Assembly: GCF_024346755.1 (NCBI RefSeq)
Contig: NZ_AP024861.1
Span: 3,782,001-3,846,000, forward strand
Direction of reading: 5' to 3'
Length of the DNA: 64,000 nt
Origin: Vibrio aerogenes
GTDB lineage: Bacteria; Pseudomonadota; Gammaproteobacteria; Enterobacterales; Vibrionaceae
The notes under the pieces are model-generated. The model did no database searches, had not been told where the DNA came from, and saw only the letters and a list, made by a program, of their open reading frames with translations. The first letter of the stretch is position 1, and each line of letters starts with the position of its first letter. The translations under genes and the position numbers were made by a program. This document shows positions 1 to 9,434 of this stretch, in pieces.

Positions 1-241
1 AGTTTAAGTCATATTCAGCAACCTGACAGCCAGCCATATAAGTATGGGGGATTGAATCAATTTCAGAAGTCACTCCCCAAAACTGATTGTTTCGGACTTT
101 ATGCTTAAGCAGGCCGGAATCCAGGTGAAAAAAACGATACCATGCCTGCTGAACCTCAGAGAGATTACCGGAATGCAAATCCAGAGCTTCCCGGCAGCCG
201 GCAAATTTCATCACCGGTAAATGAATAATATCTGGTTCCAT
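1..241 (-). CDS. Effector-binding (GyrI-like) domain protein, partial
   Basis: This reading frame runs off the left edge of the window, so only the first 80 residues are visible. They begin MEPDIIHLPVMKFAG and continue with a WYRFF segment and a WGVTSE segment. This pattern resembles the N-terminal half of the GyrI-like/AraC-type effector-binding fold, which opens with a short beta strand followed by a helix with aromatic residues. No DNA-binding domain precedes it, so it is probably a stand-alone small-molecule-binding protein; its ligand cannot be told. The ATG has no strong ribosome binding site. An in-frame GTG four codons upstream, at 251-253, is an alternative start. The family call is by resemblance only. 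Confidence 0.55.
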   Translation of the reverse strand, partial: MEPDIIHLPVMKFAGCREALDLHSGNLSEVQQAWYRFFHLDSGLLKHKVRNNQFWGVTSEIDSIPHTYMAGCQVAEYDLN

Positions 242-604
242 ATCGACGTTCACTGCTCAAAATATATCCGGTGGATGCGGACATACTGTTGTTAGAAAAT
301 AAAACGACTATTCATAAAAAATAAACGATTGGGCCGGTGATCGAAGTCACAAGAGCCGCTTCAATCACCTGATTTTTATACCTTGGGATCTCATTAAAAA
401 TAATGGTGAAAGGGTCATCTTACCTTCAGTTATTTTCCCTGAACTGAACCTGTTGATGAACCTGTTGATGACACTTTGAATCCTGCGTCTTGAGGTCACT
501 TGGGTATATACAGAATTCTTAATACTTGATATCCGGGAATAATTCGCCCTGATATTAAACAAATGTGAAGCAGGTTCAGATAAAAAGATGAGAAAAACAG
601 CAAA
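242..604. other. Intergenic region, no supported gene
   Basis: This is a 363-base stretch between two minus-strand genes. The only open frame in it, 65 codons on the minus strand, has low-complexity content and no recognisable family, and I do not accept it as a gene. A short direct repeat (AACCTGTTGATG twice) lies near 447-472. No clear terminator or promoter was recognised. Confidence 0.5.
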
Positions 605-1042
605 TTATCGGGCTTCCACTTTATTGATATTAATGTCGGCATAACCATTCACGTCAGAAGCCATCAGCCAGATCCGCCCGTCAGAAACCCCAAACAAAAC
701 CTGAATCTGCGCTTTGCCTTTTTTCTGCGGATATATACCGGATAATTGATACGTGCCGAGTCCGGTATCATCTTTGACATATTTAGAGCGGCCACGAAAC
801 AGCTGAATGATAATTTCTTCCTGATCATCATCGGCTGTACTGAAGGTTTGCACCTGACGACACGGGAGCTCACACCCCATAAACAAAATCGGGTTCATCT
901 CGCCACTATGCATCCCGATACCAATATCTTCAGACAAAGTTTGCCCCTGTGCGACCGGGGAATCAGGCTCGACAATGATCCCCGCTGCGTAAGCCGCACA
1001 CGAAAAAAAATATATCATCAGTAAAATCAGATACCTGCTCAT
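605..1042 (-). CDS. Secreted stand-alone Hsp70 (DnaK) substrate-binding domain protein
   Basis: The protein is about 145 residues. A hydrophobic signal peptide ends in AYA near residue 20, predicting export to the periplasm or beyond. The rest matches the beta-sandwich substrate-binding domain of DnaK, from memory of the family: EDIGIGMHSGEMNPIL corresponds to the SLGIETMGG...TLI strand pair, QVQTFSTADDDQ to SQVFSTAEDNQ, LGTYQLSGI to LGQFNLDGI, and IQVLFGVSDGRIWLMASD to IEVTFDIDADGILHVSAKD. There is no nucleotide-binding domain and no helical lid. Two cysteines four residues apart (CELPC) could form a disulfide in the oxidising periplasm. Two adjacent ATGs exist; the second (1042) is better spaced from GGAAG, while the first would end at 1045. 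It has no obvious operon partner. Role unknown: possibly an ATP-independent peptide-binding or holdase protein. Confidence 0.8.
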   Translation of the reverse strand: MSRYLILLMIYFFSCAAYAAGIIVEPDSPVAQGQTLSEDIGIGMHSGEMNPILFMGCELPCRQVQTFSTADDDQEEIIIQLFRGRSKYVKDDTGLGTYQLSGIYPQKKGKAQIQVLFGVSDGRIWLMASDVNGYADININKVEAR

Positions 1043-1287
1043 CATATCTTCCTGTACAACAAATCCCGGGGCAAAGCATTGACTAACGGATACCGGGATT
1101 CAAAAGACATCACCGGTTTATCGTAGCAGGTTATCCCTGAAATAGAAGCGCCATGTGGTAAAACCGGAATGGGTCTCTGTTTGCATCAATCCATGCAGGA
1201 AAAATGAGCCGGTTTTCAGCGATCAGGCGGGAGGGTTCTGTCACCAGAAAGCGCCATTCCCGCTTCACGCATCTGAGGTTAACAGGA

Positions 1288-2469
1288 TCAGCGCGTTAGT
1301 TTGATATCCCGGTAATCTTTTGGTGTTTGTGCCAGGTCTTTTTTGAACACTGAATACATATATTGCAGAGATGGATAACCACATAGTTCCGAAATTTCCT
1401 GAATAGACAGCATCGTGGTTGCCAGCAGATGGCAGGACCGGCGCAGCTTCGCATGGTGAATTTCATGGTGAATCGAATGCCCCATTTCCTGCTTGAAGCG
1501 GGTTTCTAAATTAGACCGTGAAACACCCACCGAATTCAGCACCTGTTCCACCTTGATGCCTTTGCAGGCATTGCGCCGGATGAAGTGCATTGCCTGAATC
1601 ACATAAGGATCTTTCAGCGCCTGATAATCCGTACTTTGACGTTCATATACTTTGGCAGGCGGAATAATAATGCGACAGGGCTCATTTTTCTTCTGCTGTT
1701 GGTACTCAAGCTGCTGATGTAATAATTTGGCCGCCTGATAGCCCATCGTTTTGCAACCCTGTCCGACTGAGCTCAGAGAAACCCGGGTCAGAAAACGAGC
1801 CAGTTGCTCATTATCAATCCCGATAACTGCGACTTTATCCGGCACCATAATATTCAGATTATCGCATACCTGAAGCAAGTGCCTCGCTCTGGCATCCGTC
1901 ACCGCAATAATACCGACCGGAGTCGGCAGCATTTGCAGCCAGTCAGCCAGACGGTTCATATCGTACTGCCAGGTTTTCGGGTCTGTCGCATTACCGCGGA
2001 ACACAGCACCGGAATAGCCTTCAGATTTCATCAGCGCCAGAAATGCACTTTCACGCTCCTGCGCCCATCGCTTGCGCGGGTCTTCGGGCAATCCGTAGTA
2101 GGCAAAGTTTTCCAGCCCTTTTTCCTTCAGATGCTGTAGTGCCAGATTCACCAGCGCAGCGTTATCTGTCGCCACATAAGGCACATCAGGATACATACTG
2201 GCATCCTGATATGATCCGCCCACACCAACCACCGGAATATCGACGTTGCGGAACAAAGATTCAATCTCTGGATTGTCAAAGTCAGCAATCACACCGTCAC
2301 CGTGCCATGCCTGAAAACTCTCAGGATCTGCAGTAAACTCATCCTCAAGAAAGACATCCCAGTTACACTGGGATGCCTGTAAATACTCTCCAATTCCCTC
2401 AATGACCTGTCGGTCATACACTTTATTTGCATTAAAAAGCAGATTTATCCGATAACGTTTATCCATCAT
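1288..2469 (-). CDS. xylR: Xylose operon transcriptional regulator XylR
   Basis: This AraC-type activator of xylose genes is about 393 residues, close to the 392 of E. coli XylR. The N-terminal two-thirds is a periplasmic-binding-protein/LacI-like sugar-sensing domain (YRINLLFNANKVYDRQVIEGIGEYLQ, then DGVIADFD, VGVGGSY, IAVTDARARH, VIGIDNE). The C-terminal 100 residues are a double helix-turn-helix AraC domain (IKVEQVLNSVGVSRSNLE and IQEISELCGYPSLQYMYSVFKK). The reading frame can be extended upstream by 24 codons to 2541, but family comparison favours starting at the MMDKRYR doublet (2469 or 2466). It is divergent from xylB, and the shared 280-base region carries candidate XylR sites. In the family, D-xylose binding triggers DNA bending and activation of xylAB and transport genes. 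Confidence 0.93.
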   Translation of the reverse strand: MMDKRYRINLLFNANKVYDRQVIEGIGEYLQASQCNWDVFLEDEFTADPESFQAWHGDGVIADFDNPEIESLFRNVDIPVVGVGGSYQDASMYPDVPYVATDNAALVNLALQHLKEKGLENFAYYGLPEDPRKRWAQERESAFLALMKSEGYSGAVFRGNATDPKTWQYDMNRLADWLQMLPTPVGIIAVTDARARHLLQVCDNLNIMVPDKVAVIGIDNEQLARFLTRVSLSSVGQGCKTMGYQAAKLLHQQLEYQQQKKNEPCRIIIPPAKVYERQSTDYQALKDPYVIQAMHFIRRNACKGIKVEQVLNSVGVSRSNLETRFKQEMGHSIHHEIHHAKLRRSCHLLATTMLSIQEISELCGYPSLQYMYSVFKKDLAQTPKDYRDIKLTR

Positions 2470-2583
2470 GTTATTTAATACCTGTTTCCTGAAATAACCG
2501 GAACATTCGCGAACGCCAATAATCATCCGCTTGCAATGCATCTACAACGATCGTCAAGATTAACAGTGTGTCCCGCCCGGTAG

Positions 2584-2636
2584 TGTGATCACTCACGCGT
2601 TGATGAAATAACAGAAATAAGCAACCAGAAATCATA
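2584..2636. promoter_or_regulatory. Candidate XylR operator region between xylR and xylB
   Basis: The intergenic region contains GAAATAACAGAAATAAG and then ACCAGAAATCA, that is three GAAAT/GAAAT-like half-sites at roughly helical spacing. From memory this resembles the direct-repeat XylR sites ahead of xylA in E. coli. Immediately left of it, GTGATCAC is an 8-base palindrome within TGTGATCACTCACG, which is CRP-like but with a four-base rather than six-base spacer. The operator call is inference from motif similarity and position. Confidence 0.4.
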
Positions 2637-2751
2637 ATTGTCCGTAATATCAATCAGACTAACATACAAAAATAACATCTGGATCTGCTGAACTGTGACG
2701 ATAGTTCAGGGAATAGCCACAATAAATATACCCGAAAAGGCAAATAAGCAT

Positions 2752-4203
2752 ATGTACATTGGTATCGATCTTGGAACGTCCGGGGTAAAAGTGATTGCCC
2801 TGTCTTCATCCGGAGAAATCATCGCAACCGGCACATCATCACTAGATATATCACGTCCACAGCCCCTTTGGTCCGAACAAAATCCGTTGCAATGGTGGCA
2901 GGCGACCTGTGACTGTATTCAGCAACTGGGACAACAGGCTGATCTGAAGCAGGTCAAAGCCATTGGTCTTTCCGGACAAATGCACGGCGCAACACTGATT
3001 GATGTCAAAGGCAATGTGCTGCGTCCGGCGATTTTGTGGAATGATGGCCGGTGTGCCAGAGAATGTCAGGAGCTGGAAACACAGGTCCCGGAAAGCCGTC
3101 AAATTACCGGCAACCTGATCATGCCCGGTTTCACCGCACCAAAGCTCAAATGGGTGCAAAAACATGAACCGGATATCTTTACACGAATCGCGAAAGTTCT
3201 CTTACCGAAAGACTATCTGCGCTGGCAAATGACCGGCCAGTTTGCAACGGATATGTCTGATGCTGCCGGTACCTGCTGGCTGGATCTGGCAGGACGCTGC
3301 TGGAATGATGCCATGCTGCAAGCCTGCGGTTTAACGCAGGCGCAGATGCCAAAATTATATGAAGGAACAGAGATCACCGGTTATCTGAGTGAATCTGTCG
3401 CTAAACAATGGGGCATGCCGTCTGTACCCGTTATCGCCGGCGGCGGTGACAATGCAGCAGGTGCGGTGGGCTCAGGGATTACCCGGCCCGGACAAGCGAT
3501 GCTGTCACTAGGCACTTCCGGCGTATATTTTGCGGTCAGCGATGGTTGTCAGTCCAACCCGGCGTCGGCATTACATACTTTCTGTCATGCTTTGCCCAAG
3601 ACCTGGCATCATATGTCGGTCATGCTGAGTGCGGCCTCCTGTCTGGACTGGGTCGCAAATTTAACCGGCTTCAGTGCCGTCGGCGAGATGCTGACGCAAC
3701 TTGAAGACAATCTGCCAGAACTGAATCCGGTCATCTTCCTGCCCTACTTATCCGGGGAGCGGACACCACATAATAACCCAGATGCAAAAGGTGTCTTTTT
3801 TGGCATGACGCATGAGACCACACGCTTTCATCTGGTTCAGGCAGTTCTCGAAGGTGTTGGGTTTGCTTTTGCTGACGGCGCAGACGCACTCCATGCAACC
3901 GGAAATATTCCACAGGAAGTCAGCCTGATTGGCGGCGGTGCACGCAGTGCTTACTGGCGTCAGATGCTGGCTGATATTACCGGCATGACACTCACCTACC
4001 GGCAGGGCGGAGACGTCGGGCCGGCGCTCGGAGCTGCCAGACTCGCAGCATTAGGCACTGAGGGATTATCCCGGACAGATGACATTTGTCCGGTGCCACC
4101 TCAGCTTGATCGTCATCAACCCGACCTGGCCGCTCATCAGGCGTATCAAAATAAACGCGTGACGTTCCGGAAACTTTATCAACATCTGAAGCCTTTGTTC
4201 TGA
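2752..4203 (+). CDS. xylB: Xylulokinase
   Basis: This enzyme phosphorylates D-xylulose to xylulose 5-phosphate with ATP, feeding xylose carbon into the pentose phosphate pathway. The 483-residue protein is a FGGY-family kinase almost colinear with E. coli XylB (484 residues). It shows the N-terminal phosphate loop YIGIDLGTSGVKV, the substrate region GQMHGATL and ILWNDGR, the GGGDNAAGAVG loop, and LSGERTPHNNPDAKG plus GGGARSAYWRQMLADI in the C-terminal ATPase lobe. The frame is open upstream to 2695, but the conserved family start is the ATG at 2752, preceded by AAAAGG. xylA is not beside it, although the two are usually adjacent, so the isomerase must lie elsewhere or be supplied by another enzyme. 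Induction by XylR and cAMP-CRP is expected. Confidence 0.95.
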   Translation: MYIGIDLGTSGVKVIALSSSGEIIATGTSSLDISRPQPLWSEQNPLQWWQATCDCIQQLGQQADLKQVKAIGLSGQMHGATLIDVKGNVLRPAILWNDGRCARECQELETQVPESRQITGNLIMPGFTAPKLKWVQKHEPDIFTRIAKVLLPKDYLRWQMTGQFATDMSDAAGTCWLDLAGRCWNDAMLQACGLTQAQMPKLYEGTEITGYLSESVAKQWGMPSVPVIAGGGDNAAGAVGSGITRPGQAMLSLGTSGVYFAVSDGCQSNPASALHTFCHALPKTWHHMSVMLSAASCLDWVANLTGFSAVGEMLTQLEDNLPELNPVIFLPYLSGERTPHNNPDAKGVFFGMTHETTRFHLVQAVLEGVGFAFADGADALHATGNIPQEVSLIGGGARSAYWRQMLADITGMTLTYRQGGDVGPALGAARLAALGTEGLSRTDDICPVPPQLDRHQPDLAAHQAYQNKRVTFRKLYQHLKPLF

Positions 4204-4525: not shown

Positions 4526-5530
4526 ATGACTGATAAAAATGCGACCAATCAATTCTTAGACGAAAAATTCAACGCAGTAAAAGCTGATTTCATGAGTTCA
4601 ATTGATGAGTATAAAAAGCAATCTGAAAACCTGCTCTATGGCTGGGCATTAGAGATGGATCAAAAGGTAATGGTCAACGGACATACAAAATCCGCTGACA
4701 TTGATGATTCAAGTATCCGTGCAGATATAGTCAAGTGTCCACTGGATGGGAAGCTAACTTTAGTCCATTGCTTTGAAGCGGAAAGTTTTATCCCTATCGG
4801 AGGGACTCCGTTTAAAATTCAGCCGGTTAAAGTAAAAAAACACTGGTTCAGATCAGATAGTTATATCAAGGATGGTCCGCCATATGAAGATACGATTGGA
4901 GAAGATGGACATAAAGATCTCCATCTTGATAAAGCAACTTATGCCGGCAAAATGCTGCAAATTAATTTTCAGCCAGATGTCACTCAAAGTGACATGAACC
5001 GATTGCTCCAATCATATGATGTCACGCTCAACAGTATGATGAACTGGCTTGAATCTCAGTGGAAAAGTCAAAAAGAAGAGTGGGCAGACTTCCTTGCCCA
5101 TCCGATTGATGTGGGTGCTGAGGTGAAGCGTTTTCTGCACAATGCCGTCATCGAACTGGTCAAAGCGTGGGATGAGATCGCGGACCTGTTCAAATTACTT
5201 TCCCACCCCACTCAGTTAATCAAAACACTGGCAAAATATGTCGAAAACCCGGAACTCATCGTACAAAAAATTCAGGAAGCCGGGAAAGAAGCCGTTGAAA
5301 TGCTGATGATGCTCAAAGATGAAGCCCGCTGTTTTTTATGTGTCAAAGCGGTGTTTTGCTGGATTCAACTGTTAAGCCCCCGCCAGATTATTGATTTTGT
5401 TTCTGTCAGCCTGGCTTCCGTCCTGGTGGAAGTCATTCTTTCCGTTGTCGTTCCCGGCGGAATTATTTCTAAAAGTTTTGAAAAATTACGGGATGTTGCG
5501 GGGATGGCACAAGGAGTCATTGATGGCTAA
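4526..5530 (+). CDS. Rhs-associated helper protein of unknown family
   Basis: I do not recognise the family. The 334-residue protein has no signal peptide. Residues 1-35 look helical and charged. Residues 60-155 form a probable beta-rich domain with a GGTPFKIQPVKVKK stretch. Residues 160-265 are helical with several tryptophans (MMNWLESQWKSQKEEW). Two hydrophobic segments at about 265-285 and 288-315 (FVSVSLASVLVEVILSVVV) could be membrane-inserting. Its stop codon overlaps the start of the Rhs gene by eight bases (ATGGCTAA), so the two are translationally coupled. Hydrophobic segments ahead of an Rhs shell are usual in secreted Rhs effectors, but there they belong to the same polypeptide. 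I infer that this ORF supplies a delivery or membrane-translocation function in trans. No PAAR or DUF1795 chaperone signature is visible. Confidence 0.7.
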   Translation: MTDKNATNQFLDEKFNAVKADFMSSIDEYKKQSENLLYGWALEMDQKVMVNGHTKSADIDDSSIRADIVKCPLDGKLTLVHCFEAESFIPIGGTPFKIQPVKVKKHWFRSDSYIKDGPPYEDTIGEDGHKDLHLDKATYAGKMLQINFQPDVTQSDMNRLLQSYDVTLNSMMNWLESQWKSQKEEWADFLAHPIDVGAEVKRFLHNAVIELVKAWDEIADLFKLLSHPTQLIKTLAKYVENPELIVQKIQEAGKEAVEMLMMLKDEARCFLCVKAVFCWIQLLSPRQIIDFVSVSLASVLVEVILSVVVPGGIISKSFEKLRDVAGMAQGVIDG

Positions 5531-8500
5531 GAAAAAATTAGGCAAGGCCGTAGATTGGGTCAAAAAAATTGAAGAAATCATCAAAATTGCCCAAAAAGAT
5601 ACCAAAAAGTACATGCCGGAACTCAAAAAAGCGGTGACGAAAGGAGAAGGAAGCTTCAACAAAGCACGCAAAAAGAAACAAAAATTCGGCAAAAAAAACA
5701 AAACGAAACTCACCAAAGAAGCAACCAGCATCAGCCGGAATGGTAAAAGCAAAACAAGGCTGAAAATAACCAACAATAAAAAAACCAAGAAACTGAAAAG
5801 AAAGGGCAATACCCGGAATAAGAAAAAGACCAACAAAGAAAAAAACATCTGTATCAACGGATGCCCGGTATCGATGGTCAGTGGAGAAGAATTACTGACG
5901 ATTGAAGATGTCATACTCCCCGGAGCCGTCCCTTTTACATTTAAACGGACCTACCGGACTTCCGCCTGTGAGGTCAAGTCTTATCTGGGTTACGGATGGA
6001 GCCATACACTTTCTCATCAACTTGAATTTACCGGTGATGAAGTCCTCTGGTATGACAATGAAAACAGAGTGACATCGTTACTGTTACCGGATGAAGCGAT
6101 CAGTGAATCGACAAATCCGATCGCCGGTGCAACACTCTATCTCAGTGATAAAGCCGGTGAATTCGTTTTATCTGCACCAGAGCTTCCTTTCCTGCACTTT
6201 AAGCGTCAGGGAAATACAGGCCACTTAGTCCGGCTTTCAGATAACTACAACAACGAACTCTTCATTCAATATAACCAGAACCAGCAACCGCAAGCGGTAG
6301 TGAATCCGCATGGTATTGCCCTGTGGCTGAACTATAACGAAGCTGACTTAATCAGCAGCATTGAACTGAAAACCTTTTCAGATACCCCCGACGGACGTGA
6401 GTGGCAAACACAACGGTTAATGCATCAGTATGACTACAACGAAAGCAGTCAGCTCATCTCAGAACAGAATGAAGCGGGTGAAGGCGAGTATTATCACTAC
6501 AACGAACAACATGTGATTACCGGGCGACAAATGGCTGGCGGAATGACATTTGGCTGGGAGTGGGAAGGCGAAAGTAAAGATGTTCGTTGTACCAAACACT
6601 GGAGTAATACCGGTTTTCAGGCCAGTTACCTGTGGGATGATGAAGCACATACAGTCACTGTGAGTTATCCGGATGGCAGCACAGAAGTTTATCAGCATGA
6701 TGAAGAAACCAACCTGATCAACACAACAGATCCGGATGGTGCGGTCACAACTCAGGAATACAATGATGACGGGCAACTCGTCCGGAGTGTCGATGCTTTA
6801 GGCTATGAAACCCTGCATTATTATGATGATGAAGGGCAACGGGAACTCACAGTTCTGCCGGATGGAACAGAAATCAGTTTTGAGTATCTGCTGGGCCACC
6901 TGTTCAAAGTCACTTGTGGCGATGCCACCTGGCGTTATTTCTATAATCTGGAAGGCGACTTAACCGAAAAGCGTGACCCACTGCATCAAACCACATTCTA
7001 CCACTATAACCCGCAAGGCAATCTGTCCCGGATTGCGTACCCGGACGGCAGTGAGCATCAGCTCAGCTGGAACCGGCTGGGGATGCTGATTGAGGAAAGG
7101 TACCCGGACGGCACCACCAGCCAATACCGCCATGATATCAGCGGCCGGGTGATTTACCAGAAATCCTCCATTGGCGGCGTGACGCAATATCAGTGGGATG
7201 AAGCGGACCGGTTAGTCAAACTGATTCAGCCCAACGGCAAGTCCAAAACCTTCTGTTACAACGCTTACGGCAAAGTGACAGAAGTGATGGATGAAGCAGG
7301 ACGCAAAACAGCGTATGAATACGAAGAGAACAGCCATCTGCTAAGCCGGGTGACCAATCCGGACGGCACCAGCCTGAGCTATCTGTACGACAACCCGAAA
7401 CGTTTTGTCAGCCAAATCACCAACGAACGCGGTGAAGCCTACAACATTGATTACTTTACTAATGGCCTGGTGAAAACAGAAACCACCTTCGACGGGCGGC
7501 AGATGCATTATGCGTATGATTTGCTCGGCCAGCTGCTGAAGAAAACCGAAGTGGGTAGCGAAGGCACCGAACTGGTGACCGAATTTACTCATGATGAAAT
7601 GGGCCGCCTGAGTGAAAAAGTGCTGCCTGATGGCAACAAAGTGGCCTACGGGTACGATGAGAGTGGGAACCTTGCCAGTATCGATGATGGTGAAACCCCA
7701 CTTGCATGGAAGTATGATTTACTCAACCGGGTCACGGAAGAGCATCAGAACTGGGCCTCAAACTATTTTGAGTATGATGTGGTCGGTCAGGTAGTGAAAT
7801 GGCAACTGCCGGATGCCAAAGTGCTGCACTACCAGCGAGGTCAGGGCGGATTACTCAATCAAATCAGTCTGGATGACCATGTGCTGACACGGCACTTATA
7901 TCAGAACGGGATAGAAAGCCGCCGGACCCAGGGCGCGGTGATCAGCAGTTTTGATTATGATACACAGGGCAGATTAGTTCATCAGAGCCAATCGATTAAC
8001 GGGCACCAAACCCGAACGCGGGATTACGGTTACGACGCGCTGGGCAATTTGTCGCAAATCGCTGACAGCCGCTTTGGAGACAGTTATTTCGATTATGACC
8101 CGCTGTCACGCCTGAAAGCCGTACGCGGCAATCTGGAAGAGCATTTTGTCCATGATGCGACGGGCAATGTCTTGTCTCAGCATCTGGGAAGACGTCAGGA
8201 TGAACTGAATCTGGCGGAAGCCGGCGGCAACCAGCTCACTTTCCACGGGGACAGTCATTATGAGTACGATGAGTTCGGGCGTCTCATGACTGAGAAACGC
8301 GGTAAGAATCAATCTCTCATTACTACTTACGAGTATGACTGCCAACACCGTCTGATTCAGGCCAGCATGCCGGACGGCACCACCGCCACCTACACCTATG
8401 ATGCATTTGGCCGCAGAACCAAAAAAGTCGTCACGGACAAAGCGCAAACCACCACAACCACCGAGTTTATATGGCAGGGTGATAACCTGATTGGTGAAGT

Positions 8501-9434
8501 CACGGGCAGTGATTACAAAACCTACGTGTACGAGCCCGGCACCTTCCGCCCGCTGGCCCAAATCAGCGGTGAAGGCAGAAACAACGGCGAAGTGTATTAC
8601 TACCATCTGGACCAAATCGGTACGCCCATCGAGCTGACGGATGTGCAGGGCCAAAGTGTCTGGTCGGTACAATACCGCGCTTACGGCAATGTGCTGACCC
8701 AACACACAGAAGAAATACAAAGTGCACTGCGCTTTCAGGGGCAGTATTATGACAGCGAAACCGGCCTTCATTACAACCGGCACCGTTATTACAGCCCCGG
8801 CACGGGACGGTTTACTACGATCGACCCGATAGGGCTTGCGGGTGGCTTGAATAATTATCAGTATGTGCCGAACCCGACGGGGTGGGTGGATCCGCTGGGG
8901 TTGTATGTTATTAAAGGTAGTCAATGTCAAGATAGTGCTGCCAGAAGAGCGAAGATTATTGATGCGATTGAAGAAAAAATGCAGCCTGTGATTGATTACA
9001 TTCACAAACTCGATCCTGATGCTCAGGTTGGTTTCCGGGGAAGTGTTGCTTCTGGTATGAAAGGGGAACATAAGAGGTTTGGTGGTCCAGATGGAGACAG
9101 AGTCCCTTTTGATGGTGAATATACACATAAAAACAAAGTTGCCGTACCTCATAACGGCCCTCAGGGATATGATGTAGACTTGTTTATTGTTAGTGATAAG
9201 CTTTATTCAAAATTTCCGAAGATACCATTCTTCAAAGATTTATCTAACATTGATGATAATATTGATGATATTCTGGAATCTGTAAGACAGTCTTTGAACA
9301 ACAATCCAGCCTTGAAGGGATTGAAACAGGAAAAAATGGATATACGTGTTTGGAGAGGAAAAGATATTATTAAAAAATTAAATAAGGGTGATACACAGGT
9401 TTATCTGGAATCAAAAATCAAACCTCAGAAGTAA
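5523..9434 (+). CDS. Rhs/YD-repeat toxin with nucleotidyltransferase-like C-terminal tip
   Basis: This polymorphic toxin has 1303 residues. Residues 1-108 are extremely lysine-rich and low complexity. From about 109 (CINGCPVSMVSGEELL) begins the DUF6531/RHS start, followed by many YD repeats (for example YDALGNLSQIAD and YDEFGRLMTEKRG). The hallmark core RFQGQYYDSETGLHYNRHRYY...GRF is near residues 1070-1100 and the DPLGL boundary at 1123-1127. The tip (1128-1303) has FRGSVASG at 1171-1178, YDVDLFIVSD with D1217 and D1219, and a further acidic strand KMDIRVW with D1273. This is the G-S...DxD...D pattern of the polymerase-beta nucleotidyltransferase fold. Rhs shells encapsulate and release such tips. 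I prefer the ATG at 5523, with AAGGAG upstream, over the longer open frame to 5391. There is no PAAR domain. The tip is A+T-richer than the shell, which suggests exchange. Confidence 0.88.
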   Translation: MAKKKLGKAVDWVKKIEEIIKIAQKDTKKYMPELKKAVTKGEGSFNKARKKKQKFGKKNKTKLTKEATSISRNGKSKTRLKITNNKKTKKLKRKGNTRNKKKTNKEKNICINGCPVSMVSGEELLTIEDVILPGAVPFTFKRTYRTSACEVKSYLGYGWSHTLSHQLEFTGDEVLWYDNENRVTSLLLPDEAISESTNPIAGATLYLSDKAGEFVLSAPELPFLHFKRQGNTGHLVRLSDNYNNELFIQYNQNQQPQAVVNPHGIALWLNYNEADLISSIELKTFSDTPDGREWQTQRLMHQYDYNESSQLISEQNEAGEGEYYHYNEQHVITGRQMAGGMTFGWEWEGESKDVRCTKHWSNTGFQASYLWDDEAHTVTVSYPDGSTEVYQHDEETNLINTTDPDGAVTTQEYNDDGQLVRSVDALGYETLHYYDDEGQRELTVLPDGTEISFEYLLGHLFKVTCGDATWRYFYNLEGDLTEKRDPLHQTTFYHYNPQGNLSRIAYPDGSEHQLSWNRLGMLIEERYPDGTTSQYRHDISGRVIYQKSSIGGVTQYQWDEADRLVKLIQPNGKSKTFCYNAYGKVTEVMDEAGRKTAYEYEENSHLLSRVTNPDGTSLSYLYDNPKRFVSQITNERGEAYNIDYFTNGLVKTETTFDGRQMHYAYDLLGQLLKKTEVGSEGTELVTEFTHDEMGRLSEKVLPDGNKVAYGYDESGNLASIDDGETPLAWKYDLLNRVTEEHQNWASNYFEYDVVGQVVKWQLPDAKVLHYQRGQGGLLNQISLDDHVLTRHLYQNGIESRRTQGAVISSFDYDTQGRLVHQSQSINGHQTRTRDYGYDALGNLSQIADSRFGDSYFDYDPLSRLKAVRGNLEEHFVHDATGNVLSQHLGRRQDELNLAEAGGNQLTFHGDSHYEYDEFGRLMTEKRGKNQSLITTYEYDCQHRLIQASMPDGTTATYTYDAFGRRTKKVVTDKAQTTTTTEFIWQGDNLIGEVTGSDYKTYVYEPGTFRPLAQISGEGRNNGEVYYYHLDQIGTPIELTDVQGQSVWSVQYRAYGNVLTQHTEEIQSALRFQGQYYDSETGLHYNRHRYYSPGTGRFTTIDPIGLAGGLNNYQYVPNPTGWVDPLGLYVIKGSQCQDSAARRAKIIDAIEEKMQPVIDYIHKLDPDAQVGFRGSVASGMKGEHKRFGGPDGDRVPFDGEYTHKNKVAVPHNGPQGYDVDLFIVSDKLYSKFPKIPFFKDLSNIDDNIDDILESVRQSLNNNPALKGLKQEKMDIRVWRGKDIIKKLNKGDTQVYLESKIKPQK

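Follow-up and report, generated by a model that had tools for sequence, protein, structure and literature searches.

A stand-alone Hsp70 substrate-binding domain with a signal-like N-terminus in Vibrio aerogenes

The complementary strand of a 64,000-nucleotide stretch of the Vibrio aerogenes genome (assembly GCF_024346755.1, contig NZ_AP024861.1, positions 3,782,001 to 3,846,000 of the forward strand; this whole stretch is referred to as the window) carries at 605..1042 a gene whose product very probably consists of the substrate-binding beta-domain of Hsp70 alone, with neither an ATPase domain nor a lid. The N-terminus of the protein resembles a signal peptide, and as a whole it is best explained as an exported, self-docked binder of peptides or unfolded chains that would act in the periplasm free of ATP, a reading to which we assign a probability of roughly 0.5. 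A first-pass annotation had already proposed a secreted substrate-binding domain without ATPase domain or lid, and this outline withstood the analysis; not recognized at that stage were the extra strand of a family-specific N-terminal segment, the missing docking residues, the likeness to the open form of the domain and how rare the gene is.

Gene and domain content

The whole open reading frame (ORF) spans 605-1045 on the complementary strand and would encode 146 amino acids (aa) if read from the ATG at 1045, a second ATG being present at 1042. As the upstream codon reads CTG in the syntenic, 79% identical orthologue of Vibrio quintilis, which shares the 'MSRY' start, 1042 is the better start, in agreement with the first-pass annotation. 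The resulting coding sequence of 145 aa plus stop rests on the ORF, the HSP70 match and the V. quintilis comparison. The two genes differ at 98 bases, 19 of them at first, 12 at second and 67 at third codon positions, and two methods returned dN of 0.11 and 0.10, dS of 1.59 and 1.80 and ratios of 0.07 and 0.05. The ORF is a real gene under purifying selection, with a dN/dS of about 0.06 against V. quintilis. A pseudogene or broken dnaK was considered and is ruled out by this selection and by the existence of a family of 12 members.

The Pfam HSP70 profile, proposed earlier as a check, matched the window protein with an E-value of 1.1e-11 and covered profile positions 394-475 of 599 only. The NCBIfam DnaK profile matched at E 6.2e-15, pairing protein residues 41-133 with profile positions 391-484, and the sequences of PDB chains of Hsp70/DnaK substrate domains were matched at E of about 5.5e-13. 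No ATPase domain is present in the window protein, the profile match beginning at 394 of 599, and none lies upstream, since the reading frame is closed in front of the gene (open frame of 164 codons) and the next gene on the same strand encodes a XylR-type regulator. The hydrophobic interdomain linker VLLLDV, found in 28 aligned DnaK rows, is absent from all 12 family members. The final strand of the predicted model stops at residue 142 of 145, which leaves no lid. Sequence matches, model and structural comparison place an eight-stranded Hsp70 substrate-binding beta-domain without lid at residues 39-145 (608..928, complementary strand), and the stand-alone anatomy read from the letters in the first pass is regarded as nearly certain. 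The likeness to the substrate beta-domain of DnaK (about residues 393-507 in Escherichia coli) extends to sequence, the eight strands, fold and the core residues of the cleft. Unlike that domain, the window protein stands alone, looks exported and has no ATPase domain, linker or lid, and its family has K414, N415 and Q442 replaced and a CxxxC motif and an N-terminal strand added.

A family of twelve proteins

A search of 5.8 billion proteins with the single sequence gave 14 candidates and found only the window protein and that of V. quintilis. A third copy, 49% identical, was recovered from Vibrio salinus in a scan of 329 Vibrionaceae genomes, and a search with the three sequences drew 495 candidates, of which 12 passed at E 0.001, each 138-152 aa long: the window protein, those of V. 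quintilis, V. salinus, a Vibrio sp. and Saccharophagus degradans, and seven more. The protein search was restricted to candidates with 0.55-1.75 times the length of the query; the genome scans ran without such a limit, and the copies that they found sit in open frames of 153-164 codons. None of the 12 homologues carries an upstream ATPase domain, and each of them matches Pfam HSP70 individually. Existing database labels of the V. quintilis, V. salinus, Vibrio sp. and S. degradans members read 'Hsp70 family protein' or 'Chaperone protein DnaK', automatic names that are silent on the missing ATPase domain and the export-like N-terminus.

For phylogenetic comparison, 53 Hsp70 domains from the collected loci (including 8 of 80 viral loci) were reduced to 30 by the removal of duplicate loci and near-copies, and the resulting tree of 42 rows comprised 12 family members, 28 DnaK, one HscA and one HscC. 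The family forms one clade with a support of 100/100, joined to some of the DnaK rows by a stem 3.9 changes per site long. No donor within DnaK is named, because a stem of this length carries a warning of long-branch joining and makes the attachment untrustworthy. The family is derived from the Hsp70 substrate-binding beta-domain and is most like that of DnaK.

Residues of the domain and of the N-terminal segment

The features reported here (138-152 aa, CxxxC, E25, R83 and an invariant W125, 12/12) describe the 12 proteins from which the family itself was defined. Residues 20-38 (929..985, complementary strand) form a family-specific N-terminal segment, recognized from the alignment of the 12, the model and its superposition, with a predicted strand at residues 20-25. 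E25, S28, P29, G33 and L36 are invariant in it (12/12), and it occupies the place of the VLLLDV linker in the 28 DnaK rows. With hhalign the segment fell on the final helix of the DnaK ATPase domain across large gaps, a placement discarded as not credible. The CxxxC motif noted in the first pass lies at residues 57-61 (860..874, complementary strand), at the positions of DnaK T416 and T420, and may form a disulfide; both cysteines are conserved in 12/12 members, T416 in 28/28 DnaK rows, and the pair is absent from all 28. R83 (794..796, complementary strand), at the position of DnaK Q442, is a putative partner of E25 and is found in 12/12 members versus Q in 28/28 DnaK.

According to one study, four positions, K414, N415, Q442 and D481, hold the docked beta-domain of DnaK to the ATPase domain (PMC6017645). 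Three of them are replaced throughout the family (12/12): K414 by M in ten members and by S in two, N415 by G and Q442 by R. In DnaK, K414I retains peptide binding and loses allostery, as the same study describes (PMC6017645), N415G weakens or abolishes allostery (PMC5240922), and changes of D481 break it as well, according to a further paper (PMC4595643). The loss of docking residues argues for a severed connection to any ATPase domain, and not for a protein that awaits such a partner.

The cleft was compared over 17 DnaK positions, which we take to line it. Seven of the 17 (I401, F426, T428, A429, Q433, I438 and L454) are the same in all 12 members and in DnaK, I438 being present in 27 of the 28 DnaK rows. 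A tryptophan at DnaK position 485 is shared by 12/12 members and does not appear in the residue counts shown for the 28 DnaK rows. Peptide binding is argued for by the conserved core of the cleft, and an altered specificity by its changed rim.

Predicted structure

The model used here is the best of five computed with AlphaFold2, with a pLDDT of 87 and low values at residues 1-20. It contains the strands of the DnaK substrate domain that the first-pass annotation had expected, and Foldseek matched it to the DnaK/Hsp70 substrate beta-domain with an E-value of 2e-9 and an rmsd of 1.6. Structural comparison showed the closest resemblance to be with Hsp70s in the domain-docked ATP state, whose substrate domain is open, and not with the closed domain; structural families missing from the matches listed in this comparison are not thereby excluded. 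The extra N-terminal strand of the model comes into superposition with docked Hsp70s at the invariant E25, which falls on the docking residue of the ATPase domain, D148 in DnaK, and in 11 of the 13 best structural-match rows the N-terminal segment overlies ATPase-domain residues. The fold and the open form are thus predicted features of the protein. In ATP-bound docked Hsp70s (DnaK 4b9q, BiP 6zmd) a whole ATPase domain holds this state; in the window protein a short N-terminal strand might do so.

Proline-rich antimicrobial peptides bind the substrate domain of DnaK, and a periplasmic sink for such peptides was therefore weighed as a function of the protein. PDB complexes of the DnaK domain with pyrrhocoricin, oncocin, apidaecin and A3-APO are among the structural matches of the protein or of a control model. 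These complexes use the closed domain, whereas the model of the window protein is open, and neither the sequence nor the neighbourhood contains a pointer to peptide defence, so that a sink of this kind is considered improbable.

Putative export signal

Export was judged from hydropathy and by eye only. The N-terminus of the window protein reaches a hydropathy of 2.57 over 11 residues and continues with AYA↓A, a cleavage site assigned by eye, and the low pLDDT of residues 1-20 adds to the picture of a putative Sec signal peptide at residues 1-19 (986..1042, complementary strand), in line with the signal peptide proposed in the first pass. The best 11-residue hydropathy is 2.04-3.16 in 11 of the 12 family members and 1.94 in the remaining one. 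A profile that included DnaK was used to score 8000 candidates at E 1e-5, with 7980 matches; the 120 listed are pieces of DnaK, except for the window and V. quintilis proteins. Among these 118 DnaK fragments, one reaches a hydropathy of 2.07 and the others do not exceed 1.89, so the two sets part well, though imperfectly. CxxxC is absent from 118/118 of the same listed fragments.

The abundance of DnaK pieces in protein databases, with 7980 of 8000 candidates retained, is what one would cite in favour of the gene being a decaying fragment of a dnaK copy. This explanation is refuted by the selection on an open frame (dN/dS of about 0.06) and by 12 members that share common features and a hydrophobic N-terminus, a combination found in none of the 118 listed DnaK fragments, and it is hardly credible. 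A different destination of the apparently exported protein was also considered: it could be a lipoprotein at the outer membrane or cell surface instead of a soluble periplasmic protein, and its mechanism might then be the same. A PROSITE-like lipobox pattern fits four of the 12 members (P0002, P0128, P0129 and P0130). The other eight, including the window protein, do not fit, and among these eight are four that lack any cysteine in their first 30 residues; a lipoprotein is accordingly held to be rather unlikely.

Proposed mechanism and its weight

The preferred explanation, a self-docked and ATP-free binder in the periplasm, would operate as follows. After synthesis with a Sec-type signal, the protein would be set free in the periplasm, where Cys57 and Cys61 could be joined by a short disulfide within the loop through which DnaK docks its beta-domain on the ATPase domain. 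The N-terminal strand of the family would pack at the docking place of the ATPase domain, with E25 opposite R83 in replacement of the D148-Q442 pair of DnaK, and would keep the domain in an open form like that of the ATP state. Binding of extended hydrophobic peptides or unfolded chains would then be weak and would exchange rapidly, with no need for ATP, a lid or a co-chaperone, giving the role of a small holdase or peptide buffer. Export, the disulfide, the E25-R83 contact and client binding are inferred parts of this scheme. Binding of peptides or unfolded chains outside the cytoplasm is given an even chance, and the lock formed by the N-terminal strand is put forward tentatively, as less likely than not. 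The likeness to Spy, SurA and other periplasmic ATP-independent chaperones lies in the proposed ATP-free binding of clients outside the cytoplasm. Spy, SurA and similar periplasmic chaperones have other folds.

Several observations weigh against this explanation. Two of the five AlphaFold2 models had a mean pLDDT below 58, and the control model was likewise of poor confidence (57.9). In two of the 13 best structural-match rows, 7krt and 5nro, the alignment begins only with the substrate domain, and five of the 13 pair residue 27 with 181 or 158, in a slightly different register. D481 is no clean case of a lost docking residue: the family has K in five members, N in three, D in two, E in one and Q in one, DnaK itself carries D 15 times and N 13 times among its 28 rows, and with D or N retained in five of the 12 only seven depart from DnaK. 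The argument for docking loss is unaffected by this, because it rests on K414, N415, Q442 and the model. The lid-less substrate domain of DnaK binds peptides fast and weakly, with quoted rates that imply about 0.6 mM (PMC6017645), which speaks against a tight holdase unless the protein compensates. Weak interaction is also a theme of work on Spy, an unrelated chaperone (PMC6811625, PMC7870927). Furthermore, the gene is rare, without a conserved neighbour beyond one species pair, and ten of the 17 positions counted as cleft are altered in at least one member, some of them strongly: T403 is M in ten members, M404 is W in eight, L in two, H in one and Q in one, A435 is D, E or Q in 12/12, and V436 is M in seven and I in five. 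As a separate observation, the HscA of the source genome also has M at the V436 position, which may point to an HscA-like pocket.

These changes at 404, 435 and 436, together with the tryptophan at 485 in 12/12, give substance to the main rival explanation, in which the beta-sandwich has been reused as a scaffold that does not grip unfolded chains and binds instead a specific partner, a sugar or a surface, or builds a polymer through its N-terminal strand. For the polymer form there is a precedent in Hsp70 and BiP, which form oligomers by insertion of the linker into the cleft, as described in two papers (PMC3696110, PMC4608358). The seven cleft positions unchanged in 12/12, including F426, A429 and I438, and the lack of a conserved partner gene are difficult to reconcile with such reuse, which is seen as unlikely and yet as the most serious competitor of the exported, ATP-free chain binder.

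Distribution and genomic context

Three of the 329 Vibrionaceae genomes contain a copy that outscores full-length Hsp70s (at least 151 bits, the next match scoring 59.5), and an earlier, partly overlapping set of 196 genomes from the genus contained two copies. In evenly drawn genome samples of the class (369), the order (295) and the phylum (398, E 1e-27), only the window's own copy was among the matches listed; these scans also match full-length Hsp70s and score limited candidates per genome, so that a diverged copy ranking below DnaK could be missed. Of two scans of genome contigs, the first found nothing and the second, with two patterns, only the V. salinus copy. No stand-alone copy was seen among the viral contigs, phages and plasmids looked at. 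At least 428 stretches of IMG/VR encode a relative, and the best 80 all lie in open frames of at least 526 aa, the shortest of these being cut by a contig end. With P0129 as query, none of 138 plasmid records and none of 33 phage records covered 80% of it. With P0001, five of 71 plasmid records covered 80%, and the three inspected were 29-30% identical, two of them annotated as DnaK and one unannotated.

The window and V. quintilis loci share the XylR gene upstream and a GyrI-like gene downstream. The latter encodes a GyrI-like protein of 165 codons (L021 11756-12253, reaching window positions 2-253, complementary strand), for which the Pfam GyrI-like match of the window part is below cut-off. 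The V. salinus copy has neighbours that were named by eye as NYN-like and SpoIIAA-like, and comparison of the three loci found no conserved operon partner. A search for XylR in 21 genomes matched four. The GC content of the gene is 0.463 against 0.447 for the window, and that of the V. salinus gene 0.409 against 0.404 for its locus, and because each is close to its surroundings, composition gives no sign of foreign origin. Upstream of the gene, an extended -10-like sequence, TGCTACGAT (1120..1128, complementary strand), was recognized by eye. It is also present in V. quintilis, where it was kept while the remaining spacer diverged, and this conservation suggests that the gene may have a promoter of its own. 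A consensus promoter scan did not list it, gave no more matches than shuffled sequences and was accompanied by no terminator.

The source genome, of 5.37 Mb in three contigs, contains nine further stretches matching Hsp70, among them, by eye, DnaK, HscA and an HscC-like protein. An HscC-like Hsp70 of 556 aa (L023 3469-5139, complementary strand, genome contig C2) adjoins a 927-aa protein with a J-domain-like start (638-3421, forward strand), both named by eye, and neighbouring genes at L024 5366-7213 and 7216-10014 (forward strand, genome contig C1) encode Hsp70-like proteins with an ATPase domain, of 615 and 932 aa. Elsewhere in the window, the ORF list contains a frame of 1347 codons with YD/RHS-type repeats at 5391-9434 (forward strand), whose C-terminal tail is nucleotidyltransferase-like by eye, and it is preceded by a 334-codon frame at 4526-5530 (forward strand) that may be its partner.

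Implications for Hsp70 biology

The peptide binding of Hsp70 is thought to owe its usefulness to a coupling to ATP that runs through the neighbouring domain. In passages of a review of stress-responsive periplasmic chaperones, Hsp70/DnaK is mentioned in cytoplasmic roles only (PMC8144458), and no description of an exported or stand-alone bacterial Hsp70 substrate domain was found among the titles and abstracts listed from the open-access literature; subscription papers were mostly outside this scope, so absence is not proven. A conserved, exported-looking family that retains the core of the cleft but lacks the motor, the lid and the docking residues would reveal the capabilities of the beta-domain on its own, in a compartment without ATP. 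It may be, and this is offered as a conjecture, that evolution cut out the peptide-gripping domain of DnaK, exported it and replaced the ATPase domain by a docking strand backed by a disulfide, thereby creating a new class of ATP-free periplasmic chaperone. If a strand does stand in for the ATPase domain, a protein of about 125 residues would be at hand on which the opening of the Hsp70 cleft by docking could be studied, as a natural minimal model of Hsp70 allostery. The occurrence of this apparently exported family in a few marine bacteria suggests that the grip of Hsp70 has been reused outside the cytoplasm, where ATP is absent.
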